The translations under genes were made by a program, and so were the position numbers. The notes under the pieces are model-generated. The model saw only the letters and a list, made by a program, of their open reading frames with translations. It did not search any database and was not told where the DNA came from. Positions 4,941-56,600 of a DNA stretch of 64,000 nucleotides are shown here, one piece after another. Within the stretch, counting starts at the first letter, position 1; every line of letters begins with the position of its first letter. The stretch spans positions 4,222,501-4,286,500 of the forward strand of contig JAZGTN010000046.1 in assembly GCA_037783415.1 (NCBI GenBank), written 5' to 3'. This DNA is from Leptasterias polaris. Lineage: Eukaryota > Echinodermata > Asteroidea > Forcipulatida > Asteriidae.

Positions 4941-5429
4941 ACATCCAAGTAGATCCTTGTCATTTGTCATTTGTCATTTGCCGTCTTTAATCGAATAGTC
5001 ACATTCGTCAATGAGGAGGGCGGGCGAGCGTGCAATAGAACAAATCGGATGGAACGAAGAATTCACGGTGAATGGAACGAAAAATGCACGGTGAATGAAG
5101 TAGCGTGCAATGGTACGTTTATTTGCTATCACGTGACGGACAATCCTCCAATCAAATGGCAAGGATCTGCTTGGGTGTTATATAACAATGTATATTTGGT
5201 TTGCGGTAACACCATGTTTATATCTACTTGCTAGGTAGATTTATTATGTTAAATTGAATGCGCAATGCCTTTTATTTTTAACACCCATTCGATCAGTCCA
5301 CACCACATTTCATGTCGTTTCATCCATAATGACCTAACAACCTTGACCTGTTGACCTTGTTTGTTTCATTGAATTGTGAGACTTTCATCTCTAAGCTTGA
5401 TTATTCAAAAAAAGGAACATCAGCTTGTC

Positions 5430-6180
5430 TTCAGTGCCACTTCAGTGCAAGCCACTTCAGCTTGCCTTACTGCAAGTCATTTCAGCTTGTCCCATCTGCA
5501 AGCCACTTCAGCTTGTCTCACTGTAAGCCACTTCAGCTTGCCTTATTGCAAGCCACTTCAGCTTGCTGCAAGCCACTTCAGCTTGTTGTAATGCAAGCCA
5601 CTGCAGCTTGCCTTACTGCAAGCCACTTCAGCTTGCCTTACTGCAAGCCACTTCAGCTTGCCTTACTGCAAGCCACTTCAGCTTGCCTTTCACTGCAAGC
5701 CACTTCAGCTTGCCTTTCACTGCAAGCCACTTCAGATTGCCCTCCTGCAAGCCACTTCAGCTTGTCTTGCTGCAAGCCACTACAACTTGCCTTACTGCAA
5801 GCCACTTCAGCTTGTCTTGCTGCAAGCCACTACAACTTGCCTTACTGCAAACCAATTTCAGCTTTCCTTGCTGAAAGCTACTTCAGCTTGTCTTGGTGCA
5901 AGCCACCAGCTTGCCTTACTGTAAGCAACTTGAACTTGTCTTGGTGCAAGCCACTTCAGCTTGTCTTGCTGCAAGCCACAGATTGTCTTACTGCAAGCCA
6001 CTTCAGATTTCCTTGCTGCAAGCCACTTCAGCTTGTCTTGCTGCAAGCTACTTCAACTTGTCTTGGTGCAAGCCACTTCAGCTTTCCTTGCTGCTAGCCA
6101 CTTCAGCTTGTCTTTCTGTAAGCAACTTGAAATTGTCTTGCTGCAAGCCACTTCAACTTGTCTTGCGCAAGCCAAATACC
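5430..6180. repeat. minisatellite, unit ~24-26 bp, about 30 copies
   Basis: Repeats of GCAAGCCACTTCAGCTTGCC followed by TTACT or TTGCT. The unit contains no stop in several frames, so overlapping ORFs up to 248 codons appear (5351-6097 the longest). They have no start context, splice support or known similarity, so I do not call a gene. The half-palindrome GCAAGCC..CAGCTTGC lets each unit form a small hairpin. Confidence 0.95.
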
Positions 6181-6639: not shown

Positions 6640-7100
6640 TACCATCTAGCAATAGCTCTTTACTTGCTTCTGTAGGTTACTAAAAATGGCACCAGACTAA
6701 CCCAGCAACCCCCAGGTAGCTAGTGGCACTAACCTCTCACACCTACCAAGATTTGCTTTTCCTGAGCATCACTGATGGTTAAATGCTGCTTGTGGGTGGC
6801 CATGTTTTCAGATGATCATGATGCCAAAGCCGACACTGGGGTTCCAACGGAAGACTCTGCACTCATTGTCAATCCCACTAACCTGTCGCTGAATAACAAT
6901 GCAAAGGTCGCAGAGGAAGGTGCTGTTTAAGGGACGAAATAACTTTTGTTTTTCTAGTTTTTTAAATATATTCATTCCAATTCTCAGAGATTTAAAACAC
7001 ACCCTAAGAGAAAAATGAATCTTCATAAGTTGGTTCTTTTTTATGTACACCCCTTGCACTGACAACTCACATGGCTACTGTCCGCTAATGGTCAGCCATT
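6640..7100. other. no recognisable feature
   Basis: Short ORFs only, including one of 85 codons on the minus strand at 6808-7065 with no similarity I recognise. Confidence 0.5.
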
Positions 7101-7109
7101 AGAGTCAAA

Positions 7110-7366
7110 TTGCATGTAACGGCTGATTTTCTGTTTACTGCACGTGTGTTTCCTTTTCATAGCACTGCCAACCGTAAGCACACGAAAAGGCATGCTAAGC
7201 TTCCAGTGCTTATTGTATGAAAATGAATGACGTAACAATGCAAATCTATGGTGAACGCCCAAGCTGGCCGCCTAATTTTCCTGTGCTATAAACCTGTGAA
7301 ATAAGCTTACGCTTAAGCAACTTTTTCTGCTAATTGTTAGCACGAAAATTTGCTTACTATAAAATT
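7110..7366 (-). mobile_element. GCTTAAGCAGCTC-family MITE fragment
   Basis: The reverse complement of this stretch aligns with 28990-29195 (GATTTGCATTGTTACGTCAT, CATGCCTTTTCTTGTGCTTACGG in parts). It belongs to the same dispersed family as the copies at 28873 and 37339. Confidence 0.65.
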
Positions 7367-7388
7367 GGCCTATGGTGCGGGTCTAAAC

Positions 7389-8180
7389 ATAGAGAAAGGA
7401 CCACGGAAGGAGTTCGAACCTGTCGGGCAGTAACAGCAGAGATCAATGGGCCACACGAACCCCTATATGTAGGTTGTGCAATACCGCATTTTACACTGGT
7501 AAACTGCAACTCATTTGGGCCCTGCATTGAAGAATGCTGTGTCATATTTTCTTGACGTCATTTCGCTGCAAGCTTTTCCACAATAAATGGAGTAGATATT
7601 TTGCATCAAATAAGACTTTATCGCATGCGCAGTCGAGTACAGTTCACCCTGGTTCATAATGACGCACGCAATCATGAAGGTTTTAATTACAAGTATTCGT
7701 CAATGTTTTTTTTGTTTTTTTAATCAACCAAAGTTAGGGGAATTTACACCAAATTCTTCAAAATTCGTGCGAGAATTATGACTTTTGTTAAAACTGACAT
7801 ATAAACAATTTTCATGGTTTTTCTGGGTCAAAAAATTGTGCATCTGGCAGGGAGTAAGTTAGTCTTTTTTGAACATGTTAATTGATGATGTGGCCAACCG
7901 TAGCCAACTCCAAACCACAAATCAAAACATTTGAAGAGTGAAAACATTCCTTTCCTGCCACACTTTCATTCAACAGAACTACTGGTTTGGGCTTCTGCGC
8001 ACGCCGATTCCCCAAAATGCACTGCGCCACTCTGCTATGGACAATTGGCTGACCGCAAAGTGGATGTTTGTGTCAGCAGTCACAATAGGATTAGCATACG
8101 ACTGCAAGGTATTTGCGGTGGTGATCATGTTTCCTCTGAAGTAAGAGAGTTGTAACTCCTTCCGTGGTCCTTTCTCTATG
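7389..8180. mobile_element. non-autonomous hAT-like element with 8-bp target duplication
   Basis: Terminal inverted repeats of about 26 bp start ATAGAGAAAGGACCACGGAA and recur in inverse at 8151-8180. The 8-bp sequence GTCTAAAC flanks both ends (7381-7388 and 8181-8188). An 8-bp duplication is typical of hAT elements. It has no transposase ORF; the interior is unknown. Confidence 0.8.
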
Positions 8181-8273
8181 GTCTAAACAAGCGCAAGTTG
8201 CCTTTAATGTGCACTGATCAGAAACTTGAGGGGACTCCGACTCCCAAAATGGCGCAATCAGGATTGTGACGTC

Positions 8274-8412
8274 GGGGCCCAATTTCTTGAAGCCTGTAGC
8301 AGAGATATAGGTTACCAGCCAAAATTCCATAATATTTACATTGTTACGACTGGTGCTCTGCTCACTTTTTTTGCTTAGCAGTATTTTCTGCTGGGCAGCT
8401 TGATGGAATTGG
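8274..8412 (-). mobile_element. GCTTAAGCAGCTC-family MITE fragment
   Basis: GGGCCCAATTTCTTGAAGC, a GGTTACCAGCCAAAATTCC segment and TTTGCTTAGCAG match the family consensus seen at 48195-48446. The copy is incomplete. Confidence 0.6.
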
Positions 8413-8824
8413 GCCTTCTCGAATTGGGTCATAAGAGAGGGCTTTGTAATGCAAAAAAACAGCACTCTCTTTTCTTTTTCCCCCAAAGAAATCCACGGTT
8501 TTTCTTGCACATTACAGGGTAGCTCCATTAAAGAAAGAGGCTAAAAGACAGCATCCTTTTTTGTCTGGCAGCTCACACCTGTTATCTACATGTAATTCCT
8601 TTTCCAAACAGTGGAGTTAATTGGTTAATGCACAAACCAGTTGTGCTGACTGCCCCAGGCAGATTAAATGCTCATCCATTAAGTTTAATGACCCAAGTTA
8701 TTCAATGTAAACAAGCCCACTCTGTGAAAAGGGCGTATACTTTCCGAGTTTTTGTGACCAAACTCGGAAATTCTTTAATGGAGCTTTCCCGTAATGAATA
8801 TTGAGGATTGTAATAAGCGGTTAA

Positions 8825-8938
8825 AGCCCGGTTCATACTTCAGACGAAAGCGAAAGCGAAGTGAATTTTCTTGAGTCAAAATTGCCAAAACGGCGCGTAT
8901 CGATTATTGCTTTCGTGTGAAGTATGAACCGGGCTTGA
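8825..8938. mobile_element. hairpin MITE, AAGCCCGGTTCATACTTC family, copy 1
   Basis: AAGCCCGGTTCATACTTC and its inverse GAAGTATGAACCGGGCTT bound a ~114-bp element. Confidence 0.85.
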
Positions 8939-9745
8939 ATCAAGTGTTATTGCTCCAATTAAAATATTAAGTGGGAAAACTGGTACTGTATGCTTGGTGC
9001 TGTAAATCTCACTGCACTTGTTTTCTTTTACTGCAAAAATAACATCACATCTTTTTTTTTCCAGTGGCTGAAAAATGTCTAACAAAGCTGAAAAGTATAA
9101 GTGTGGGAAAGTCTCTATGAGTTAAGCCTTGTTTTTTGTGGTTTTTTTTTTGGGGGGGGGGGGGTGTATTGTTATTATTATTTCTTTAGGTGTAGCACAA
9201 GTGAGAACATCCTTGCTCTTCGATATAAGGTTAACAACAGTGTTTTGTAAATTTTTGTTTATTTTAGTTTGTATATTCTCTGCATTGTTGATAATAATCT
9301 GTGAATCTTAAATAATATTACATGGCTTGTACAATGTACATGTAAGAGACCATACAAAGTCCTGTGCCTTTTTTTAACATTTTGGGGAAATGAAATCACT
9401 CACTTTAACAAGTCCAACAGGACTTGCACTTAGGCGTTTTGTTGAGCAACCCACTGGGCTAGTAAACTTTGCATTTAACTTGCCCCCAGGAAGTTCTAGC
9501 AGCCCATATTTTAAACATGTATTGGCATATGTATCTTTCTTATGTATTATTAGTGGTAGCGATCACAACCAGTTTGATGGTACAATGAAGTTACATTCAA
9601 ACACTCAAAAATAAATTATTTGTAAACTTGGTTGTGATCCCTGGCTACACGGTAGGTAAAGGTTGTATGGCTTCTGACTGGCACCCCAGAACAAAGATAT
9701 CGACAATAGTTGTGAGCAAAAATACTTAAGTTGTGAGCAAATAAC

Positions 9746-11800: not shown

Positions 11801-11809
11801 CAGCGACAT
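11801..11809. repeat. 9-bp target-site duplication, left copy
   Basis: CAGCGACAT, identical to 20736-20744, immediately outside the inverted ends of the foldback element. Confidence 0.92.
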
Positions 11810-12235
11810 ACCAGACTGAAGCTAACCGCGTATTGGGCCAGATTTTCCATCCGCGTATTCGGGGATTCGCCAGCCGCGTATTCAGGAAAATTAGAATCCA
11901 TGCAGTAAAAGGCGGTGAAATTTCTGTCTCCCATTTTTTCGAATTTTAACGAATTTTTTAATAATCTTACTTTTTCAGTGCAATTTTTTCCCTATTATTA
12001 AAAAACATATCGCTAACCATACTTGAAGAAAGAATTAGAAGATTTGGCGGCCTAATTAGTGAGTAATTAGCCGCCACAATTAGGACCTCATCATACAGAC
12101 CATAATTAAAAACTGTTGGAAAACTTGCACTCGCTGTAAAGTAAATGTACCCTTCATGTTGCATAAAATATGAAATTTTCTTCCATAATCTGATAGACCA
12201 CACCACTGGCCACACTTAATTTTGGAGGTGATTAA

Positions 12236-14512
12236 ATCCAATCACTAACTAATACCTAATTAGCCGCTAGAATACACGCCTTTTTGTATCACACGTTAGG
12301 GTATGTACACAAGACTCCATAATGAATGTACTCGCCGTAAAGTAAATGTACCCTTCATGTTGCACAAAATGTGAAATTTTATTGCATAATCTGATAGACC
12401 ATACCACTGGGCACACTTAATTTTGGAGGTGATTAAATCGGATCACTAATTAATACCTAATTAGCCGTTAGAATACACGCCTTTTTCTATTACACGTTAT
12501 AGGTATATGGTATACTTGTACACAAGACTCTATAATGAATGTACTCGCCGTAAAGTCAATGTACCCTTCATGTTGCACAAAATGTGAAATTTTATTGCAT
12601 AATCTGATAGACCATACCACTGGCCACACTTAATTTTGGAGGTGATTAAATCCAATCACTAACTAATACCTAATTAGCCGCTAGAATACACGCCTTTTTG
12701 TATCACACGTTAGGGTATGTACACAAGACTCCATAATGAATGTACTCGCCGTAAAGTAAATGTACCCTTCATGTTGCACAAAATATTAAATTTTATTGCA
12801 TAATCTGATAGACCACACCACTGGGCACACTTAATTTTGGAGGTGATTAAATCGGACCACTAATTAATACCTAATTAGCCGTTAGAATACACGCCTTTTT
12901 CTATCGCACGTTATAGGTATATGGTATACTTGTACACAAGACTCTGTAATGAATGTACTCGCCGTAAAGTAAATGTACCCTTCATGTTGCACAAAATATT
13001 ATTTTTTATTGCATAATCTGATAGACCACACCACTGGGCACACTTAATTTTGGAGGTGATTAAATCGGACCACTAATTAATACCTAATTACCCGCTAGAA
13101 TACACGCCATTTTCGATTACACGTTATAGGTATGGTATACTTGTACACAATTAAGACTCTATAATGAATGTACTCGCCGTAAAGTAAATGTACCCTTCAT
13201 GTTGCACAAATTATTAAATTTTATTGCATAATCTGATAGAACATCCCTCTGGGCACACTTAATTTTGGAGGTGATTAAATCGGATCACTAATTAATACCT
13301 AATTAGCCGTTAGAATACACGCCTTTTTCTATCGCACGTTATAGGTATATGGTATACTTGTACACAAGACTCTGTAATGAATGTACTCGCCGTAAAGTAA
13401 ATGTACCCTTCATGTTGCACAAAATATTATTTTTTATTGCATAATCTGATAGACCACACCACTGGGCACACTTAATTTTGGAGGTGATTAAATCGGACCA
13501 CTAATTAATACCTAATTACCCGCTAGAATACACGCCATTTTCGATTACACGTTATAGGTATGGTATACTTGTACACAATTAAGACTCTATAATGAATGTA
13601 CTCGCCGTAAAGTAAATGTACCCTTCATGTTGCACAAATTATTAAATTTTATTGCATAATCTGATAGAACATCCCTCTGGGCACACTTGATTTTGGAGGT
13701 GATTAAATCGGATCACTAATTAATACCTAATTAGCCGCTAGAATACACGCCATTTTCTATTACACGTTAGGGTATGGTATTTGTACACAATTGACTCTAT
13801 AATGAAATGTACTCGCCGTAAAGTAAATGTACCCTTCATGTTGCACAAAATGTGAAATTTTATTGCATAATCTGATAGACCATACCACTGGCCACACTTA
13901 ATTTTGGAGGTGATTAAATCCAATCACTAACTAATACCTAATTAGCCGCTAGAATACGCGTCATTTTCTATTACACGTTAGGGTATGGTATTGTACACAT
14001 TACTTACAATTAAGAATGTACTCGCCGTAAAGTAAATGTACCCTTCATGTTGCACAAAATATTAAATTTTATTGCATAATCTGATAGACCATACCACTGG
14101 CCACACTTAATTTTGGAGGTGATTAAATCGGACCACTAATTAATACCTAATTAGCCGCTAGAATACACGCCATTTTCGATTACACGTTATAGGTATGGTA
14201 TACTTGTACACAATATTAAGACTCTATAATGAATGTACTCGCCGTAAAGTAAATGTACCCTTCATGTTGCACAAATTATTAAATTTTATTGCATAATCTG
14301 ATAGAACATCCCTCTGGGCACACTTAATTTTGGAGGTGATTAAATCGGATCACTAATTAATACCTAATTAGCCGCTAGAATACACGCCATTTTCTATCAC
14401 ACGTTAGGGTATGTACACAAGACTCTATAATGAATGTACTCGCCGTAAAGTAAATGTACCCTTCATGTTGCACAAAATATTAATTTTTATTGCATAATCT
14501 GATAGACCACAC
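12236..14512. repeat. left-arm tandem array of the foldback element
   Basis: About 11-12 units of ~200-215 bp, each with TAATTAGCCGCTAGAATACACG, ACTCGCCGTAAAGTAAATG, TACCCTTCATGTTGCACAAA and TTTTGGAGGTGATTAAATC. A two-unit higher-order repeat of ~430 bp is visible: the variant ACATCCCTCTGGG recurs near 13247 and 13677, and GACTCTGTAATGAATG near 12941 and 13371. Confidence 0.95.
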
Positions 14513-14599
14513 CACTGGGGGCAACAAAAAAGTAAGACTACGAGACTGAGACATTTGGGGGGGGGGGGGGGGGGGGGGGATAAGGGAGAGGCAAATTAA

Positions 14600-15290
14600 T
14601 TACATATCTATTGTTTTTAAATTAGATCTATGAAAAAATCTGACCAACAAAAATAATCATTACAATTTGTATAAAATGAGTTTTAGCTTTCATAATAAAC
14701 ACACAAATCATTTGTTATTTTTTTTTGAAACAAACTAAAAACTCTGGGACAAGGATGCTTATTTGATCTTATCTTTTTAGGAACCCCTTTTGTAAATCCA
14801 CGCCTGAGTACGTGCAACCACTAAAAGCAGGTTTCAACGCAGACGCGCGACGCTCGCACGGGCGTAGAATTAACACGTGACGCAGTTTGAAGAGGACGCT
14901 GACGCCTGGACAACCGTAGACTGCAATGAAAGGCTTAGCGTCTGACAATTACAACGTCTGGTGATTATCATCGCGCGACCAAAACAAATTTTGGTGATCG
15001 GAGGTGGGCACAATTCTTAATTTTTTGCAAGTAACCGGAAGCAGAGGTCAAGTTTAATTCTTTGGTTTTCTTCCTTGTATTGTTGAATTGATTTTACTTA
15101 GATATTTTTTATCACTTAGTATTACATTCCCAACAACATATTTAATTTTCATGGTCATAAAGTACGTTAAACTAAAATAATAGACGAAACAAAATCTTGC
15201 CAACGTAAAACTCCATATGGTTGGGACCACAATGGTCCCGGAAGTTCGATTACGCGCGAGACTTGCACAGTCTATTGGTGTTTTTTGCAA
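14600..15290. repeat. dispersed repeat shared with HOOK intron 8
   Basis: CTGGGACAAGGATGCTTATTTGA, CACAATTCTTAATT, GTAAAACTCCATATGGTTGG and CAGTCTATTGG recur in the same order and orientation, diverged, at 48040-48180 and 49380-49510. This is an unclassified mobile repeat captured in, or inserted into, the foldback element. Confidence 0.65.
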
Positions 15291-15424
15291 AATAAGCTAT
15301 TTATAACCTGTACCCTTGTGGACCACTGTTAATTCACTGACAGATATCTTCTCATGGGAATTTACACGTGAATCTGTGAATGGACAGCAAGTTTCTGAAC
15401 GTATTCACACATCTGTGTGTGCGA

Positions 15425-15650
15425 AATGCATATGATTAGAAAGATGTTTTAAAAGTAGAATACAATGATCCACTTAAATATGCCTCGAAATTGCATGGTT
15501 TTCCTTTTACTTTACGAACTAACACGGTCGGCCATTTATGGGAGTCAAAAATTTGACTCCAATAAATGGCCGACCGCGTTAGTTCGTGGTGGATCATTTG
15601 TGTGGATCATTGTATTCTACTTTTAAAACATCTTTCTAACCATTATGCAT
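15425..15650. mobile_element. hairpin MITE within foldback centre
   Basis: AAGATGTTTTAAAAGTAGAA...GATCCAC is mirrored around 15601-15637, and an inner palindrome reads GGTCGGCCATTTATGG / CCAATAAATGGCCGACC. Together the arms are more than 80 bp. Confidence 0.8.
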
Positions 15651-16749
15651 CTCATAACAAACGGTTACAAATGCTTTTTATGACCAACTCGTCCAATCCA
15701 AGGCAACGTGTCGCTTTAGGAAGTGCAAAGCAAAGATCCATAGCTAGCGCCACACGTACACGCGGCGCTTTACGATCTTCGGTTTTTAATCCCCTGCTGC
15801 AAGATCAATGGCGGCATCGACATCTGCAGCAGAAAACACCGAATGCGCCTTTTTAATCCAAAGAGCACACGTTAAATGCCCCATGAAGTGAATCGTTCAG
15901 TAGGAACGTATTTTGCGCTACATTATAATCAAATCCTCTTCTGTGATATGAAAACTAATTGACAGAGAGACCCTTTTAAGGGTTAATTTATTTATTTCTT
16001 GTATTACCCCATAGCCTAATTAGTTTTCGTCCACGAATAAATATTGTATTCTGCAGTTTGTTTTACTCAAGATGTCTGATTCAATGACTCACTAGAACAA
16101 CTAGAACATAATTATGTATGAGCTTAAATAAATGGTTCAAGTGGTCACTCGTATAAAGTTTATTGCCTGAGATCGCACCACGGAGAGCATAATAGAATCC
16201 CCATGTTCCAGGGCCCTTTGAGTGGTCCCGGACCCCACGCTGTTACGCAGACGCCACGACTTGCCTTCAACATTACTGCTCTGGTACATTCCCCCCCCCG
16301 CCCCCCCCCCCCCCACCCCATCCCCGGTTTTGAAGGTATTGGATCTGCCCTGAACCTTTTAAAAAGCGGGAGGGGAACTGGTTCCTCTGCCTAAGAACTT
16401 AAAACTTTCCCCAAATTTTCTGCTGCAAATCTAAACAATGTGGCCAAAGCCTTTTGCAGCGTTTGTCTGGTCAAGCATATTGCAAAACGTAAATATCAAA
16501 AATAATAATTCAAGGAGCTGCGACTGGGGATATGTTTTTGGTGTGCCCCGCCCCCCCCCAAAAAAAAATAATAAAATATTTCTGTATGCATCTAGAGCAC
16601 CTCCCGAAAAGTGCTAAATTATGATGCCGGTGCCATTGGTAAATCTGTCCCCGGGGTGATTCCGTCCCCCATGGTAAACTAGAATGGGATGATGAAGGAG
16701 GATGAATCAAAAGAGGGCGCTATCTGAAGAAGTTTGTACAATATACCAT

Positions 16750-19700
16750 ATATACAATATACGTGTATTCTAGCGCTTAATTAGGTATTAATTAGTGATC
16801 CGATTTAATCACCTCCAAAATTAAGTGTGCCCAGTGGTGTGGTCTATGAGATTATGCAATAAAATTTAATAATTTGTGCAACATGAAGGGTACATTTACT
16901 TTACGGCGAATACATTCTTAATTGTAAGTAATGTGTACAATACCATACACTAACTTGTAATAGAAAATGGCGTGTATTCTAGCGGCTAATTAGGTATTAA
17001 TTAGTGCTCCGATTTAATCACCTCCAAAATTAAGTGTGCCCAGAGGGATGTTCTATCAGATTATGCAATAAAATTTAATAATTTGTGCAACATGAAGGGT
17101 ACATTTACTTTACGGCGAGTACATTCATTATAGAGTCTTAATTGTGTACAAATACCATACCCTAACGTGTAATAGAAAATGGCGTGTATTCTAGCTGCTA
17201 ATTAGGTATTAATTAGTGGTCCGATTTAATCACCTCCAAAATTAAGTGTGGCCAGTGGTATGGTCTATCAGATTATGCAATAAAATTTCACATTTTGTGC
17301 AACATGAAGGGTACATTTACTTTACGGCGAGTACATTCATTATGGAGTCTTGTGTACATACCCTAACGTGTGATACAAAAAGGCGTGTATTCTAGCGGCT
17401 AATTAGGTATTAGTTAGTGATTGGATTTAATCACCTCCAAAATTAAGTGTGGCCAGTGGTATGGTCTATCAGATTATGCAATAAAATTTCACATTTTGTG
17501 CAACATGAAGGGTACATTTACTTTACGGCGAGTACATTCATTACAGAGTCTTGTGTACAAGTATACCATACCCTAACGTGTAATAGAAAATGGCGTGTAT
17601 TCTAGCGGCTAATTAGGTATTAATTAGTGGTCCGATTTAATCACCTCCAAAATTAAGTGTGCCCAGTGGTGTGGTCTATCAGATTATGCAATAAAATTTA
17701 ATATTTTGTGCAACATGAAGGGTACATTTACTTTACGGCGAGTACATTCATTATGGAGTCTTGTGTATACATACCCTAACGTGTGATACAAAAAGGCGTG
17801 TATTCTAACGGCTAATTAGGTATTAATTAGTGATCCGATTTAATCACCTCCAAAATTAAGTGTGCCCAGTGGTATGGTCTATCAGATTATGCAATAAAAT
17901 TTCACATTTTGTGCAACATGAAGGGTACATTTACTTTACGGCGAGTACATTCATTATGGAGTCTTGTGTACATACCCTAACGTGTGATACAAAAAGGCGT
18001 GTATTCTAGCGGCTAATTAGGTATTAGTTAGTGATTGGATTTAATCACCTCCAAAATTAAGTGTGCCCAGAGGGATGTTCTATCAGATTATGCAATAAAA
18101 TTTAATAATTTGTGCAACATGAAGGGTACATTTACTTTACGGCGAGTACATTCATTATAGAGTCTTAATTGTGTACAAATACCATACCCTAACGTGTAAT
18201 AGAAAATGGCGTGTATTCTAGCTGCTAATTAGGTATTAATTAGTGGTCCGATTTAATCACCTCCAAAATTAAGTGTGGCCAGTGGTATGGTCTATCAGAT
18301 TATGCAATAAAATTTCACATTTTGTGCAACATGAAGGGTACATTTACTTTACGGCGAGTACATTCATTATGGAGTCTTGTGTACATACCCTAACGTGTGA
18401 TACAAAAAGGCGTGTATTCTAGCGGCTAATTAGGTATTAGTTAGTGATTGGATTTAATCACCTCCAAAATTAAGTGTGGCCAGTGGTATGGTCTATCAGA
18501 TTATGCAATAAAATTTCACATTTTGTGCAACATGAAGGGTACATTTACTTTACGGCGAGTACATTCATTACAGAGTCTTGTGTACAAGTATACCATATAC
18601 CTATAACGTGCGATAGAAAAAGGCGTGTATTCTAACGGCTAATTAGGTATTAATTAGTGGTCCGATTTAATCACCTCCAAAATTAAGTGTGCCCAGTGGT
18701 GTGGTCTATCAGATTATGCAATAAAATTTAATATTTTGTGCAACATGAAGGGTACATTTACTTTACGGCGAGTACATTCATTATGGAGTCTTGTGTACAT
18801 ACCCTAACGTGTGATACAAAAAGGCGTGTATTCTAACGGCTAATTAGGTATTAATTAGTGATCCGATTTAATCACCTCCAAAATTAAGTGTGCCCAGTGG
18901 TATGGTCTATCAGATTATGCAATAAAATTTCACATTTTGTGCAACATGAAGGGTACATTTACTTTACGGCGAGTACATTCATTATGGAGTCTTGTGTACA
19001 TACCCTAACGTGTGATACAAAAAGGCGTGTATTCTAGCGGCTAATTAGGTATTAGTTAGTGATTGGATTTAATCACCTCCAAAATTAAGTGTGCCCAGAG
19101 GGATGTTCTATCAGATTATGCAATAAAATTTAATAATTTGTGCAACATGAAGGGTACATTTACTTTACGGCGAGTACATTCATTATAGAGTCTTAATTGT
19201 GTACAAATACCATACCCTAACGTGTAATAGAAAATGGCGTGTATTCTAGCTGCTAATTAGGTATTAATTAGTGGTCCGATTTAATCACCTCCAAAATTAA
19301 GTGTGGCCAGTGGTATGGTCTATCAGATTATGCAATAAAATTTCACATTTTGTGCAACATGAAGGGTACATTTACTTTACGGCGAGTACATTCATTATGG
19401 AGTCTTGTGTACATACCCTAACGTGTGATACAAAAAGGCGTGTATTCTAGCGGCTAATTAGGTATTAGTTAGTGATTGGATTTAATCACCTCCAAAATTA
19501 AGTGTGGCCAGTGGTATGGTCTATCAGATTATGCAATAAAATTTCACATTTTGTGCAACATGAAGGGTACATTTACTTTACGGCGAGTACATTCATTACA
19601 GAGTCTTGTGTACAAGTATACCATATACCTATAACGTGCGATAGAAAAAGGCGTGTATTCTAACGGCTAATTAGGTATTAATTAGTGGTCCGATTTAATC

Positions 19701-20319
19701 ACCTCCAAAATTAAGTGTGCCCAGTGGTGTGGTCTATCAGATTATGCAATAAAATTTAATATTTTGTGCAACATGAAGGGTACATTTACTTTACGGCGAG
19801 TACATTCATTATGGAGTCTTGTGTACATACCCTAACGTGTGATACAAAAAGGCGTGTATTCTAGCGGCTAATTAGGTATTAGTTAGTGATTGGATTTAAT
19901 CACCTCCAAAATTAAGTGTGGCCAGTGGTATGGTCTATCAGATTATGCAATAAAATTTCACATTTTGTGCAACATGAAGGGTACATTGACTTTACGGCGA
20001 GTACATTCATTATAGAGTCTTGTGTACAAGTATACCATATACCTATAACGTGTAATAGAAAAAGGCGTGTATTCTAACGGCTAATTAGGTATTAATTAGT
20101 GATCCGATTTAATCACCTCCAAAATTAAGTGTGCCCAGTGGTATGGTCTATCAGATTATGCAATAAAATTTCACATTTTGTGCAACATGAAGGGTACATT
20201 TACTTTACGGCGAGTACATTCATTATGGAGTCTTGTGTACATACCCTAACGTGTGATACAAAAAGGCGTGTATTCTAGCGGCTAATTAGGTATTAGTTAG
20301 TGATTGGATTTAATCACCT
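16750..20319. repeat. right-arm tandem array of the foldback element (inverted)
   Basis: About 17-18 units, each the reverse complement of the left-arm unit. A higher-order repeat of about 1.02-1.03 kb (five units) is visible: the variant CCCAGAGGGATGTTC occurs near 17040, 18067 and 19095, and ATAACGTGCGATAGAAAAAG near 18604 and 19634. Confidence 0.95.
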
Positions 20320-20735
20320 CCAAAATTAAGTGTGGCCAGTGGTGTGGTCTATCAGATTATGGAAGAAAATTTCATATTTTATGCAACATGAAGGGTACAT
20401 TTACTTTACAGCGAGTGCAAGTTTTCCAACAGTTTTTAATTATGGTCTGTATGATGAGGTCCTAATTGTGGCGGCTAATTACTCACTAATTAGGCCGCCA
20501 AATCTTCTAATTCTTTCTTCAAGTATGGTTAGCGATATGTTTTTTAATAATAGGGAAAAAATTGCACTGAAAAAGTAAGATTATTAAAAAATTCGTTAAA
20601 ATTCGAAAAAATGGGAGACAGAAATTTCACCGCCTTTTACTGCATGGATTCTAATTTTCCTGAATACGCGGCTGGCGAATCCCCGAATACGCGGATGGAA
20701 AATCTGGCCCAATACGCGGTTAGCTTCAGTCTGGT

Positions 20736-20744
20736 CAGCGACAT
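20736..20744. repeat. 9-bp target-site duplication, right copy
   Basis: CAGCGACAT, identical to 11801-11809. Confidence 0.92.
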
Positions 20745-20874: not shown

Positions 20875-20913
20875 ATGTCTCAAGATGAACTCTGTGACAG
20901 TCTATTAACTTGG
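20875..20913 (+). CDS. hook: HOOK exon 1 (residues 1-13)
   Basis: ATG TCT CAA starts the peptide MSQDELCDSLLTW, followed by donor GTGAGT. It matches the ELCESLLTW start of vertebrate HOOK proteins, and the next exon continues with VQTF just as vertebrates continue IQTF. The exon ends in phase 0. The start was chosen because the homology begins within a few residues of this ATG. Confidence 0.9.
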
Positions 20914-29900: not shown

Positions 29901-32666
29901 AAAGTTGACATGGATACAGTGCATTGTTCTGAACTTAATGGCCTAAGTTGAGTAGGCTGAAGGGAAGTACCGGGTCAGTCATAACAAAGCCAAGGATGTG
30001 TGATAGCTATGACGGTGGTGCAAATTGTGAAAGTCAATACACATTGTGTCCTGCAACTTCGATTGAAACAAAAACTAGCATTGCAAGAAGTTTCAGGGGC
30101 AGGGGTTCTCCCTAGGTTTTGATGAAATACTGTGGGAGAATCTTCAACCTAACGGGCCAATGCTAAGAAGGGGAAACGTTTTGTTAAATTCATGAGCAAA
30201 AGTTCATTTGCTAGAACTTTAGACTCAGTAACATTTTAAAAAACAACAATCTATCAGTGTTCTCCAACTTTGAAAAAAAAAGGTTAACGCTTGGGGGGGG
30301 GGGACCAATGCGAGCATGAACTCTCAATGAAATCCATTAACTTGAAAAAAGTGGTGAAAAAAAAAAATGTGGCGGATGGATTTTAAACCTTGGCGGTGAC
30401 TTCTTAAACATGGTTGGTGCCGCAGAAAGCTTGGTGGTGTGCCAAGTTTGTTTTACATGTTGGAGATTACTTATGTTTTAAAAAGAAAAGCTTGTTCATG
30501 ACTTTCACAAAATGTTTCCTTTAACCTTGGACTTGGCTCGTTAACTTCCTTTGTGTTGAGTTTCACATGCAGTGATTTATACCAGTAACTGATTTATTTT
30601 CCTCTTTTATTTTTTGTTCTTGCAGAGCGCCAAATTTTTTCAATGCAGGATGGTATGGGAGGATAAAAAAGGAAGTTGGGGATAACTGGAGAATACGAGT
30701 CAGTAACCTCAAGAAGGTCTTGGAAGGCGTTTTAGACTTCTACAACGATGTAAGAATCTTGGTCTTTATTTTTTTGAAAGAGTTGAAAGTTCAGGCCTGA
30801 TGCTTCACAGAGGCAATGGTGGCAATTGCCTCCGTTGCCCCTGGTCATTGCCTTGGTGCCCCTTCTAATGTTTTTGTAGAAATTTACAATTTCCTCAAGG
30901 AGAAAACGCCTTGGTGCTGTTGACCTTTCAAAATGGAAGCACCAGTGCCCAATGTCATAGAGCTGCTTAAGCAGAAAATGTTGCTTAACAGTTGTCTGCT
31001 ATGCAGAAATGAGCAGGATACCAGTCGCAAATTGTACATGAGACATGGTAGTTTGGCTGGTAACCTTATTCTGGTTAGCGAAACTTATCAGGATTTTTCC
31101 TAGGATGTGTTCAACTTTGGCAAAATTCTACCATTTAAAAACTGTTCACCACGCTAATATTTTGTAGCGCACTGTATTCAAAAGCTGTATCTCGTCTGCG
31201 TCAACTCGTCAGACCAATCATTGGGCAGTATCTTTAATGAGCATTCTGTGTTCTGGTTTATGTTTTGTCGTCTGCTCTTCAAAATTATTACCAAATACAA
31301 GCGCAATTTTTAAAGCCTGATTGTGCTTCTTCAAAAATTGTAATATTTGTAATTGTATCGACCAAGCATTACGACTAGTTGATTTAAAAAAAACAAAAAA
31401 CTACTTCTTTACGGACGTACATTTGCAATTCCAGTGAAATGCATAGAGAAGAAATATTTAAATAAAATGAAGTCCATTTACATGTGTAAAAGGTTAAAGG
31501 TATTATACAGGATTGGCAGAGCTGACAAAATAATCACAGACAGTGTTCATGTTTTGTGTAATCAACCACATACATGAAATAACAAACCTGTGAAAATTTG
31601 AGCTCAATTGGTCATCGAGGTCACGAGAAAATAGTGAAAAGAGACCTTATGTGTTTTCTGTTTTTCAAACATCGAGTTTATTATCGCGCGTGATAAAAAC
31701 TATTGTTTTACTCATTTCTCAGAAACGATAGCATTTTAGGCAGAAATATTTTAAGGAACCCTTTCTACCATTACTTACTTTAAATCATGTAAGTTATGTG
31801 TGAATCTGTGAACATTTGTGTTTTTCGATCTTACCAATAGTGTACAGGGCCTTTAAGAAATAACCCGCAATCAACCTGTGGAAGACCTGATGGAAAACTC
31901 CATCCTGTAACCTCCCTCACCTCATATAGTCCAAACATACCCTTCCTGTAGCATTGGGGGACATCTCCCGTGGCCAATAAAAACATTTCCTGTGTGGCCG
32001 ATACTCCCACAGTACAAATATACACAATACCGTCAAAATATTCCAACCTTCCAGAATAGCAGAGGAGCTTATAGTAACAGGATATTGGATTAAAGGTTGT
32101 ATCAGCGTAGATCCAAAATAACCCCAATCCTATCATGTCTGGTTTATACTTGGGCTGACAGGGCTGTCATCTACTAGTCATGTGTCAATGTTTTTTTTCA
32201 CCTGTTGTGTTTACGCTTCTTGGACTGTCAAGCACAGCGTTTTATTTACTCTGTCTTTCCAATTATTCCTCGCTTTGAAAGAACCTACATGTAGTCATTA
32301 ATTTGAGAAACATGGTTACATCGGGGTGTTGTGGCCGAGTGGATAAGAACACCGAACTCAAGCTCTGGTGTTTCTGTTCAGCAGAGTGTGGGTTCGAGTC
32401 CCGGTCGTGACACTTGTGTCCCTGAGCAAGACACTTAACTATAATTGCTTCTCTCCACCCAGGGGTAATATGGGTACCTGTGAGGGCAGAGATGGTTCTT
32501 GTGCTTGATTTAGCTTAGTAGCGCATATATTGCAGCACAGGCTGTATACTCCCCAGGGAGCTGAGATGGTTTAAGGAATGAAATAAATGGCCCAGTGACC
32601 AGGGGTAATAATGTTGGAAGCGCTTTGGGACGCCCTTCGGGTGTGAAAAGCGCTATATAAAAATTG

Positions 32667-50600: not shown

Positions 50601-53600
50601 CACAACTTTGGCAGTTGAATGGTTTCAAATGGTTGGTCAACTCACTTGAAAATGTTGCGAACAGTAGGAGGGTTAAGGCAGACTATGAAGGAGGATATGG
50701 GAGAAAGCAAAGACAAAAGGTTGTTAGTATATAGCTAAGTTTAAAGGTAGGTTATACTTTTGGTAATTGTCAAAGACCAGTATTCTCACTTGGTGTATCC
50801 CAACATATGAATAAAATAACAAACCTGTGAAAATTTGGGCTCAATTGGTCATCGAAGTTGCAAGAAAATAATGAATAATAATAATAAATAATAACAACAT
50901 TTATAATGCGCACATATCCACCCCAAGGGATGCTCAAGGCGCCTAACATACTATTACCCCTGGTCACTGGGCCATTTATTTCATTCCTTAATCATCTCAG
51001 CTCCCTGGGGAGTATACAGCCTGTGCTGCAATATATGCGCTACTAGGCTAAATCAATCACAAGAACCATCTCTGCCCTCACAGGTACCCATTTTACCCCT
51101 GGGTGGAGAGAAGCAATTATAGTTAAGTGTCTTGCTCAGGGACACAAGTGTCACGACCGGGACTCGAACCCACACTCTGCTGAACAGAAACACCAGAGCT
51201 TGAGTTCGGTGCTCTTAACCGCTCGACCACGACACGTCACGAGAAAAAAACACGCTCAAATTAGAAATGTATGCTTTCAGATGTCTAAAAAAAAAAGGCT
51301 TCATGCCTGAACCCTTTTTTAAATTCAAATTTGTTGATGGAAAATTACCTCTTTCTCTAAAACAACTACTTCAAAGGGTGTCATTTCTAACAATGTTGTA
51401 TAATATCAACAGCTCTCTAGTGCTCTGTACCAAGCAAGTTTTTATGGTCTTTAATTGTTGGAGAAATTACCAAAGGTGTACACTCCCTTTAAAGGCCCTG
51501 TACACTATTGGTAAGATCGAAAAACACAAATGTTCACAGATTCACACATAACTTACATGATTTAAAGTAAGTAATGGTAGAAAGGGTTCCTTAAAATATT
51601 TCTGCCTAAAATGCTATCGTTTCTGAGAAATGAGTAAAACAATAGTTTTTATCGCGCGCGATAATAAACTCGATGTTTGAAAAACAGAAAACACATCAGG
51701 TCTCTTTTCACTATTTTCTCGTGACCTCGATGACCAATTGAGCTCAAATTTTCACAGGTTTGTTATTTCATGTATGTGGTTGATTACACAAAACATGAAT
51801 ACTGTCTGTGATTATTTTGTCAGCTCTGCCAATCCTGTATAATACCTTTAAATGGTTTGAAAGATAAAGTTGGAATCTTTCCAATGGTGGTTAATATACG
51901 GGATTGTAGTTCTGCAATCCTCTTAAAATGGTTTGGAACGATTTGGAATCCCAAAACACCGACGGAGCTATTTATTATGTTTGTGTACATAAAGTGTTCG
52001 AGTTCACAATCAATCAGGTCGACTCTCGTCGGACTGCAACAAAAGCACGCCACACATCACGATCTCCCATAGCTGTTCTGATCTCAGCTGCAGAGGTTAG
52101 CTCAGTATCACCACACAACTGGTCCACGTAGGTTAGTGACTGCCCACCTCGAGAGGCTACACCATGTGTGGGTTCCCAGAGAATGAGTTGGCTTGCAGCT
52201 ATATCTGGATGTCGAACGCAGTGTCCAGCCAATCGCAGACGCCTAAGCCTGATAGTTGTAGAGATCTTTGGCAGGTTGCCATAGAGCACCCCGTTGCTGA
52301 CTTTGTCTCTCCAACTCACGTCTAGAGCCATCCTCAGCATGCGAGTGTAACAGCCATCAAGTCGAGCCTCTTGCTTTGTAGTAAGGGTCCATGCCTCAGA
52401 GCCATAGAGTAGGATGGACTCCACGGATGCACGGAATAGAGCTCGCTTGAGTTTGTCCGGCATCATAGACCTCCAGATCTTCTTGAGGTTTTGGCATGCT
52501 TTCCAAGCCTGTGCTTTCCTTACTCGGATGTCCTTGTCTGTTGAGCTGATGTGCGAGCCCAGGTATTCGAGTTCACATTCGGGAAGGAATATTGAGAACT
52601 TTAACGTTTGTTGACCAATCTCAATTTTGGGGGGGATTGTATGAAAGGGCATTCAAAAATTCAACATTATTTTACTTAAAAATGAAATCTTTAGAGTGAT
52701 ATTAGGCTTTGTAAAATTGGCCTCTGAACACATGCATGCTGTTAGGCCAAACAAAAAAGTGTTCTGTTTCCGATTACATGCCATTTTAAAATAGGGTCGG
52801 TAGGTCGGAAAGTTTTGTTTTTTTGCCTTTTTTAAAATTCTGATACGTTTGGCGGGTGTGTAAAAATACCCTACTTGCCCGATTCAAAACTAACAGCGAA
52901 CGTGAAAAAAAAACTGCTCCCAAATCCATCTTCAGTATACTTTTTTAGTTCAATTTTGTTAAAAACATGTTAGTTTGGTCAAAGTCTAACATTTGGTCCA
53001 TATTACCTTCATTTTAAAAATCTGTTGTTATAATTTTAATTTTTTCCCATGTTTTTTTTTCAAGCCGAATAAAAAGTTAAGGGTCGGTCGGAAAACCGGA
53101 AACAGAACACTTTTCTTGTTTGGCCTTATGTAAGAATGTGTGTGGTCAAACAAATAGGTCACCAGCAGTTGTCTTTGTCAAAAAAGCGATTTCTTACAGA
53201 GAGTTACAAACTTTTACTTTTGTGACTCTTTGCAGCGGTTGAGAGTTGAGCGAGACTCACTCCGAGAAACAAACGACGAGCTGACCTGCAACCAGCTCGC
53301 TGGGAATATGGGTATGGGTCTGTCGCCTGACGGGCCATTCAGCCCTGGCAGCCCCCTGTCATCAGGATTTGCCGATATGCTTCCCTCAGAAATAAGGTAT
53401 GTTAACACTCACCCTTAACTCGCCCCGAATCTGAATTGATGACTACAGCTGTAACTCTTCCGCGGATTTCCGCGTTTGATAAAATAGAAATCCACTGTTA
53501 CGAAAAAACTCCGCGTACAAGAAAATCACGCTGCATGAAAAAAAAAATTCAGCGTTGTATGGACAAAAAAATCCCGCTGAGAGAAACATTGCTTATTGAA

Positions 53601-56600
53601 AAGAAATAAAGGTTCAAGATTCTTAAAGTCTGGCTCCACAAGTTTACACAAACAAAAGCATTACACTGTCCAGACACAGACACAGACACAAGTTCTCCTT
53701 GTACAGCATACCTTTTACACTATTCTTGTTTGCAGTCGGGCTTCGTAGTGTTTTTATTGCTTTTTGTATAAGGGGATGCGGCGGGAACCAGACGCTATAA
53801 GAGTGCAAGTGAACCACGCGATCGCTAGGTGTTTGCTCGAAAAGGAAATTTTCTCATTGCTAAAGGTGTCGCTAAGGGTTGCCTATACTTCAGCGCATAA
53901 TTTTGTCTCCTCTTTTATTATAAAATGTTCTTCTTTTTCAGGGAAAAGATTATCCGCCTTCAGCACGAAAACAAAATGTTGAGACTGAAAGCCGGAGAGT
54001 CAACCGATGAAAAGACGCAGCTGTTGCAGAGCCTTCTGGATGACTCGAACGCCAGGCGGAATGAGCTAGAGTCGGAAAACAGGTACGGTATGGTACCCGG
54101 ACTGCTCTCCAATTTGAACCGAGGCTTGTAGGACAATAGTCTGGTGCCTATGTTTTTGTCATAGTGCTGGAATTCAGTTTCTGTTTCTAGGATATCGGAC
54201 TTAGATGACTTTTATTTTGTATCTTTCTCTTATTTGGGTATCATGCAGAGAAAGTGTTGTAATTTGTTGGCAAGAGAGCATTCTACTAAAGGTGCTAGGT
54301 CTGTTTTTGTGCCAATTTGACCTGAAAATTTAGATTTAATTCTTAAATAGCTGTTTTATATAGATTCAAGAAAGCTATAAGCTTTCATTTCATTTAAGGT
54401 ATTGCACCAAAAATGCACCACCGATAAGTGGTAGTTAATTAAAAACTAAAAAAATGAAATATTGTTGGAATCGCGACATTATCTCACGTCCATAAGCCAC
54501 GAACAGATTTGCAACTTTGCATGTCACAAGTATTGTGTGCATTGTCCGTGGCATTAAGCCTAAGGCATGGCATTTGCATGTAGCATTTTCATGCAAAATA
54601 CATTGTTTTCACAAAAAACGAGATACAATGTTTTTTGCACTGACGCCACAAGTTCACCCAAAGGATTGCGGCACTGTGATTTTTTTGAATGGAACAGTGG
54701 GCTTTTGCACAGCATAGAGATGGAACAGATCAGTCATTGCATGACATAACTTGTTTCTGTTCTTCTCGACGTGTCTCAGGATTTCCAATCAGCGAATTCT
54801 TTCATTGGAAGTAGAGGTTGAAGAACTGAAGCTGCAGCAAAGGGAAGAAGGCGTGTCGTCGTCGGTCGTTGGAGAGGTGAGAACGAAAATCTTCCTCACT
54901 TTCACTCAACTAGTTTCTGCCGTTGAACCATGCTGCCTGGTTCACTCAATTTGTTCTGTGTACTGAAGTGCTTTGACTATTTTAGAATTATGCATGGTTT
55001 GACACCAACCATCAGTAGCATTTCTTAGCGGTGTAGGACTAGTGCAAGAGCAGCGATGCAGTGCTGTGCTTTGATCAATAAAGATAATGCTAGTCTTGTC
55101 TTAGGTACCTGTAGCTGAGATTTCTAATATAGTGCTACTTTAAATATTTGAAATATTTAACATAATACTTGTCTTTACACAAAAGTTCACGGGCTTAAAC
55201 TGGAAAAAAGGTCCAAGTTAAGGTGGTTTAGCCACCAGTATTTTTCTCAAAGTAATCCAAGTTTTGCAGCAACTTTTCCAGTTGGAACGGTCAGTCACTG
55301 TTGTAGTCAGTCGGTATTGTAGTGAGATCAGTTAATCATTAATGTAGTGAGATCAGTTAGTGTTCCAGGGATCTGTTAGTGTTCCTGGGATAACGGTCGG
55401 TGTTCCTGGGATAACGGTCGGTGTTCCTGGGATAACGGTCGGTGTTTCTGGGATAACAATCGGTGTTTCTGGGATAACAGTCGGTGTTTCTGGGATAACA
55501 GTCGGTGTTTCTGGAATAACAGTCGGTGTTTCTGGAATAACAGTCGGTGTTTCTAGAATAACAGTCGGTGTTCCTGGGATAGTCGGTGTTTCTGGGATAA
55601 CAGTCGGTGTTCCAGGGAGAACAATCAAATTTCCTAGGATATCAGTCAGTGTTTCAATGAGAAAAGTGACTTCGGTCGGTGATCCAGTGAATTCAACTAA
55701 GATCTGTCAATTGTCTTCGAAGACCAGTCAATGTTCCAGTGATTTCGGTCAGTAATCCTTGGATTTTAGGCAACGTTCCAGGTAATTGGGCAGCGTTCCA
55801 GGTAATAAGGCAGTGTTCCAGTGATCTCGGCCAGTGTTCCAGTGATCTCGGCCAGTGTTCCAGGGATATTAGGCAGTGTTCCAGTAATTTTGGTCGGTGT
55901 TCCAGGGATGTTAAGCAGTGTTGTTAAGCAGCGTTTCAGTAATCTTGGTCAGTGTTCCAGGGATATTAGGTAGTGTTTCAGTGATATTGGTCAGTGTTTC
56001 AGTGATATTGGTCAGTGTTCCAGGGATATTAGGCAGTGTTCCAGTGATCTTGATCAGTGTTCCAGGGATATTAGGCAGTGTTTCAGGTAATTAGGCAGTG
56101 TTCCAGGTAATTAGGCAGTGTTCCAGTAATCTTGGTCAGTGTTCCGGGGATATTAGGCAGTGTTCCAGTAATTTTGGTCAGTGTTCCAGTAATTTTGGTC
56201 AGTGTTCCAGGGATGTTAAGCAGTGTTGTTAAGCAGTGTTTCAGTAATCTTGGTCAGTGTTCCAGTGATATTGGTCAGTGTTCCAGGAATATTAGGTAGT
56301 GTTTCAGTGATATTGGTTAGTGTTCCAGTATTTACCTCGGTCGGTGTTCCAGTATTTATCTTGGTCGGTGTTCAAGGGATATTAGGCAGTGTTGAAAACA
56401 TTTAGTGTTCTAATCAGATTAGTCTGATCTAAGGGAACCTTTGACAATTTAACTGGAAGTATAGCATTGCTCTCATTAACCCTGCCACTAAGTTGTCCAG
56501 ATTTGTGTCCAATCACAAAACCTGTACTCATCATTTTGCGATTTCCTGATCGGTGCTTCTGCTTTTACAATATATCCCATATATTAAATCCACATTAATA

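Follow-up and report, generated by a model that had tools for sequence, protein, structure and literature searches.

Foldback Elements With Tandemly Repeated Arms

The FB elements of Drosophila, which are built from short units, and the TU elements of sea urchins follow a foldback plan. As a kind, such transposons are already well described, FB, Tetris, Rehavkus and Tm1 being examples. Tetris of Drosophila virilis, whose description also cites the sea urchin TU elements, is a non-coding foldback element with an outer flanking domain, a variable middle and arms that both carry tandem units of ~220 bp; its duplications measure 8-10 bp, complete copies are few, and a kinship with Mutator has been suggested (PMC4079207). 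Rehavkus-1_TC of Tribolium measures 9.5 kb and has inverted termini that consist mostly of five and eight 164-bp tandem monomers; Rehavkus elements, which produce 9-bp duplications and are allied to MULEs, have been reported from arthropods and annelids (PMC6446971, PMC10218199), and Rehavkus serves as an outgroup in MULE trees. For FB4 of Drosophila, duplications of 9-10 bp and ~700-bp TIRs are given (PMC8277862), while Tm1 of root-knot nematodes has composite foldback ends, duplications of 8-10 bp in 45 of 53 complete elements and non-autonomous copies beside a single transposase-bearing one (PMC3169594). Galileo has long, internally repeated ends with extra transposase sites in the repeats (PMC3688188). 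Muta1, a MULE, generates duplications of 8 or 9 bp in yeast.

The element described here shares the listed features of Tetris, which it resembles in anatomy, the composite ends and copy composition of Tm1 and the repeated ends of Galileo, including extra candidate transposase sites. Like Rehavkus, to which it is likened by description, it has tandem repeats in its inverted termini. Its likeness to Drosophila FB, noted in the first-pass annotation, holds for the plan of mirrored foldback arms; that to sea urchin TU elements is likewise one of plan. The further claim that the unit and the ends were undescribed may stand for the sequences themselves but not for the kind of element, which has well-described counterparts in Tetris, Rehavkus and Tm1. 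Three features look new: the family as a set of sequences, the connection of its ends with a transposase fused to ubiquitin-specific-protease (USP) and Ulp1 domains, and base changes found in both arms of an element.

A Foldback Insertion Upstream of HOOK

The stretch of 64,000 nucleotides analyzed here (the window) contains a real non-autonomous foldback transposon of 8,926 bp (11810-20735), which lies upstream of HOOK at a distance of 139 bp from the start codon. Exact copies of CAGCGACAT bound it at 11801-11809 and 20736-20744, and the plus strand of the window contains no further occurrence of this 9-mer. Its left end begins with ACCAGACTGAAGC at 11810 and the exact inverse finishes at 20735, so that the bounding 9-mers, the inverse ends and the mirrored arms together bear out the earlier reading of a foldback insertion with a 9-bp duplication.

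In structure, the element has the long inverted arms of tandem repeats flanking a variable middle that characterize the foldback class. Each arm starts with an end domain of 317 bp, termed T (11810-12126 on the plus strand, 20419-20735 on the minus strand). Inside T, the motif CGCGTATT occurs three times, at offsets 18, 43 and 66 from each end (left starts 11827, 11852 and 11875, spanning 11827-11882 on the plus strand; mirrored right copies at 20663, 20686 and 20711), and these triplets are candidate transposase-binding sites. On both strands of the 64 kb the motif is found seven times, always within the element; the seventh copy belongs to one of the left-array units. Behind T follow tandem arrays whose units number 12 on the left (12127-14519, plus strand) and 18 on the right (16762-20418, minus strand) when counted by anchors spaced 201-217 bp apart. 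TRF reported the left array as 12129-14519 (period 213, 11.4 copies) and the right one as 17156-20416 (period 201, 15.9 copies) or, alternatively, as 16762-20416 (period 414, 8.9 copies). A derivation of the unit from T was rejected, the two sharing only a weak 22-bp match that was equalled in 30 and 24 of 500 shuffles, as against a domain-unit match of 37 bp in Tetris (PMC4079207).

Between the arrays lies a middle block (14520-16761) that is common to two other copies, L010 and L011 (97-98.5%). It was considered as a remnant of a transposase gene and rejected as such, since it shares only C/G runs with the transposase-bearing C189 stretch described below. The ORF scan gave no frame of more than 96 codons within the element, and an autonomous element was not seen inside the window. 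Nested in the middle block is a near-perfect hairpin (15432-15643) with arm pairs of 48 bp and 36 bp (94% each); it is probably a separate small repeat, because similar sequence also occurs in L009, L043 and L048.

The likely first HOOK ATG lies at 20875, 139 bp past the element, just as the first-pass annotation had it, and 130 bp past the second duplication. Regulatory DNA of HOOK may have been displaced by the insertion, as that annotation proposed. The putative first coding exon (20875-20913, plus strand) reads MSQDELCDSLLTW and is followed by GTGAGT. Five coding stretches of the plus strand, when joined, matched Pfam HOOK PF05622 (E 1.9e-28), and the gene would mark the host as an animal. 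A PDB sequence search with the HOOK pieces returned no useful match.

Other repeats are present in the window. An inverted pair (31494-31856 and 51489-51851) agrees at 99.2% over 363 bp and constitutes a second young repeat; a 212-codon frame at 52014-52652 (minus strand) resembles, by eye, the tail of a LINE reverse transcriptase; and the open frames at 5333-6097 and 55351-55755 consist of short tandem repeats, probably minisatellites.

Family Copies and Target-Site Duplications

Across the assembly of 629.7 Mb, the 13-bp end ACCAGACTGAAGC was found 51 times, 25 times on one strand and 26 on the other; as a control, the same pattern read backwards gave 11 and 13. Nine convergent pairs, including the window element, were found among them. 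Flanks were inspected for 50 of the 51 copies (all except C273:169018), and family sequence was present within 47 bases of the end in 31 and absent in 19. Only the two window ends carried CAGCGACAT within the adjacent 14 bases, which assigns this 9-mer to the target site and not to the element; other copies of the junction of 9-mer and end, named in the first-pass annotation as a refutation, did not turn up among the inspected ends.

The 19 copies lacking family sequence are not family ends, and several of them open a SINE-like repeat (CTCTGGTGTTTCTGATCAGCAGAGTGTGGG...), as judged by eye. Another flank, GGGAATAAAA, recurs beside the 13-bp end in L013, L023, L026 and L032; it is inverted on both sides of L013 and in L032 occurs without T. 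On account of this pattern, the 13-bp ends of these four seem to lie within another repeat.

The nine paired copies are 273, 793, 1,265, 2,895, 2,953, 3,280, 6,076, 7,712 and 8,926 bp long, the window element being the longest. Exact duplications of 8 bp flank five of them (L010, L011, L012, L014 and L016), an exact one of 9 bp flanks the window element alone and an imperfect one (six of eight bases matching) flanks L009, while none was found at L013 and L015. Duplication at independent sites, typical of foldback elements, is accordingly exact in six of nine pairs, and the lengths fall in the 8-10 bp range of MULE/Mutator elements. By chance, 14 of 200,000 random pairs of 8-mers from the window agreed. 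As a trait of this copy the 9-bp duplication stands; for the family it is the exception and 8 bp the usual length. At L015, a second T fragment (L015 1-94) adjoins the left end of the copy and is perhaps the reason for the missing duplication. Six of the nine paired copies have exact duplications of their own, so that an assembly artefact is unlikely to account for the whole.

Members of the family share the end domain of 317 bp and, behind it, units of ~207 bp. T yielded at least 43 domain matches, some of which are pieces of one end; 40 of 193 candidates were scored. T, units and middle block are all common to L010, L011 and the window element. Over ~2.2 kb and gaps aside, the middle block of the latter differs by 11 substitutions from L011 and by 12 from L010, and pieces of it also occur in the paired copies L009, L014 and L015.

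Identity of the Arms

In an ungapped comparison, the arms of the window element first differ at arm position 1,189, so that 11810-12997 (plus strand) and 19548-20735 (minus strand) are identical. The first-pass annotation had seen no mismatch in the outer ~400 bp; the identity was confirmed and extends to 1,188 bp. Beyond this point, the order of units differs between the arms. The right array matches itself at an offset of ~1,035 bp (96.3%), a higher-order duplication with the pattern that unequal exchange would make.

The arms of L011 first differ at position 2,112. Over the first 1,188 bases, the window element and L011 show two differences, at sites 304 and 748, and each is present in both arms of its element. 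At site 304, L011 is the changed element, because L010 agrees with the window element. Site 748 falls in the third unit, which in both arms of the window element is unlike the unit of L011 at that place; the L011 version recurs deeper in the right arm of the window element (unit-by-unit splitting was done for three elements). In L010, changes private to one arm occur at 69 and 180.

The T ends were compared across 24 end sequences and nine two-ended elements, with partial ends, such as those of L015, L016 and L037, left out. In four of the nine (window element, L011, L013 and L048), each arm had its own partner as the strictly closest sequence; this held for one arm only in C189 and for neither arm in L009, L010, L014 and L036; in L009, one arm falls within the young group and the other outside. 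Judging from these sequences, arm-to-arm copying is not general in the family, because in five of nine elements at least one arm had a closer sequence than its own partner.

A Transposase-Bearing Relative

Two retrieved loci, C189 (L045 with the adjacent L049) and L037, join T to the same gene. On C189, T and units occupy 302-1365 and, in inverted orientation, 12182-12882, with 96.7% agreement between the arms over 701 bp; of the 40 longest inverted matches, none but this pair encloses the interior. On the minus strand between these arms lies a broken transposase gene whose pieces are homologous to residues 9-1073 of a frame on C58 that runs unbroken for 1,076 codons. The homology halts at ~9827 and restarts at ~6161, around a piggyBac transposase frame. 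L037 joins T to a 500-bp piece of the same gene (96% DNA identity). At the C189 copy, the outer ~6 bp of one end are altered and no target duplication was found; owing to these two features and to the splitting of its gene, it may not be a working source. Neither of the two retrieved T-gene loci showed an unbroken gene between T ends. The splitting element is of the piggyBac type (L045 6161-9827, DDE_Tnp_1_7, 8.4e-78), and a stretch 92% similar to it lies within L037.

A 171-residue transposase core gave 18 matches in the whole genome: C189 (100%), C194, C58 and C211 (66%), C123 (67%, with a stop), others of 50-51% whose frames reach 1,764 codons, and then weaker ones. The unbroken C58 frame combines DD-E residues with a USP domain and an Ulp1 protease domain. 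For structure models of a homologue, the best predicted fold match was ISCth4, an IS256-family transposase; IS256 and MULE transposases are kin. Plain Foldseek with the first homologue model gave no PDB match at E 0.001. A Foldseek match to the uncharacterized bracovirus protein O92526 (E 1.1e-9 and 1.2e-10, with low TM-scores of 0.18-0.34) may serve as a lead only. IMG/VR viral contigs were tried as a source of relatives and dropped (eight pattern matches, none confirmed).

The comparison with described transposases shows differences as well as likenesses. The Rehavkus transposase has a PHD finger (PMC6446971, PMC10218199), whereas the scanned parts of the C58 frame contain USP and Ulp1 domains and gave no PHD match; among 14 homologues, three have one. 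The Tm1 transposase is of the Phantom type with FLYWCH and the Pfam MULE domain (PMC3169594); here, PF10551 matched neither the front part of C58 (E up to 5) nor any of the 14 homologues (E up to 1), which also gave no FLYWCH match. Pfam MULE loci were considered as helper candidates and rejected, since the 28 genomic PF10551 matches and the 18 core matches show no overlap. Galileo differs in its P-superfamily transposase with a THAP domain (PMC3688188). For Tetris, the helper is given as unknown (PMC4079207), unlike the present family with its transposase-bearing relative. Kinship with NOF-FB is only a lead, from the record name of one fish homologue ('120.7 kDa protein in NOF-FB transposable element'). 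In the literature searched, a transposase with both USP and Ulp1 domains was not found, which does not prove its absence.

Origin, Helper and Mode of Movement

Taken as a whole, the locus is probably best explained as a non-autonomous foldback insertion moved by the IS256/MULE-type DD-E transposase of its relative, with its arms copied one onto the other. A local segmental inverted duplication or a satellite array, without any transposon, would likewise give long mirror-oriented tandem arrays, yet it has practically no probability left, refuted by paired copies that place the same ends at many sites with different flanks, six of nine pairs having exact short duplications. P elements make 8-bp duplications, the usual length here, and in L042 a single 10-kb stretch holds one T end with units and, a few kb away, a 707-codon P-superfamily frame (6959-9082) with Tnp_P_element (4.8e-23) and TNP-like RNase H domains. 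That a P-superfamily transposase moves the family, in the manner of Galileo, itself described as a foldback-like P element, nevertheless appears very unlikely: the 9.96 kb of L042 yielded no second T end and the P-type frame was not seen between T arms, as the C189 gene is, and the 9-bp case fits MULE-type elements such as Muta1. It is also unlikely, if less so, that the C189 gene came with a different element, inserted into a foldback copy, the true helper being another. The missing duplication and altered end of C189 would agree with such an insertion, as would gene relatives of 66% and 50-51% without the exact 13-bp T end nearby; against it, no inverted repeat other than T with units was seen to enclose the gene, and L037 also joins T to a piece of it.

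Concerning the arms, their identity might stem from recent insertion alone or from assembly or polishing, with no arm-to-arm copying, a reading to which we give a minor share of probability. The few middle-block substitutions separating the window element from L011 place it in a young group, the arms of L010 have arm-private changes, and polishing of near-identical arms could put the same change in both. Youth alone, however, does not place the same new change in both arms, and both differences from L011 sit in both. Since in each of the two elements a change reached both arms, the sequences support arm-to-arm copying in the window element and L011. The first-pass suggestion of gene conversion may thus be kept for these two and is not a general rule of the family.

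In the reading preferred here, the transposase encoded by a relative with the same ends would act in trans, binding the terminal region with its triple CGCGTATT motifs, and the element would be excised and reinserted with a staggered cut of 8-9 bp, most likely by cut-and-paste. The tandem arrays would lengthen and shorten through unequal exchange, and copying of one arm onto the other would have made the outer arms of the window element identical. The protease domains could, speculatively, act on chromatin or on the stability of the enzyme itself. More tentatively still, foldback elements of the FB/Rehavkus plan might belong to a single animal transposase lineage in which an Ulp1-type protease and a USP are fused to an IS256-fold DD-E enzyme. 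Such an enzyme may protect itself, or it may remove ubiquitin or SUMO marks from chromatin at the target or the donor, and non-autonomous members would keep their ends matched through arm copying.

Implications

Foldback elements described without their transposase include Tetris (PMC4079207) and FB4 (PMC8277862). In the present case, one assembly contains both non-autonomous copies of young age and a copy in which the same ends are connected with a transposase gene, which makes the question of the helper testable. The fusion of a transposase to two peptidase families directed at ubiquitin-like modifiers points to a connection of mobile DNA with the modification of host proteins, and the changes found in both arms of an element constitute a natural assay of arm-to-arm conversion.
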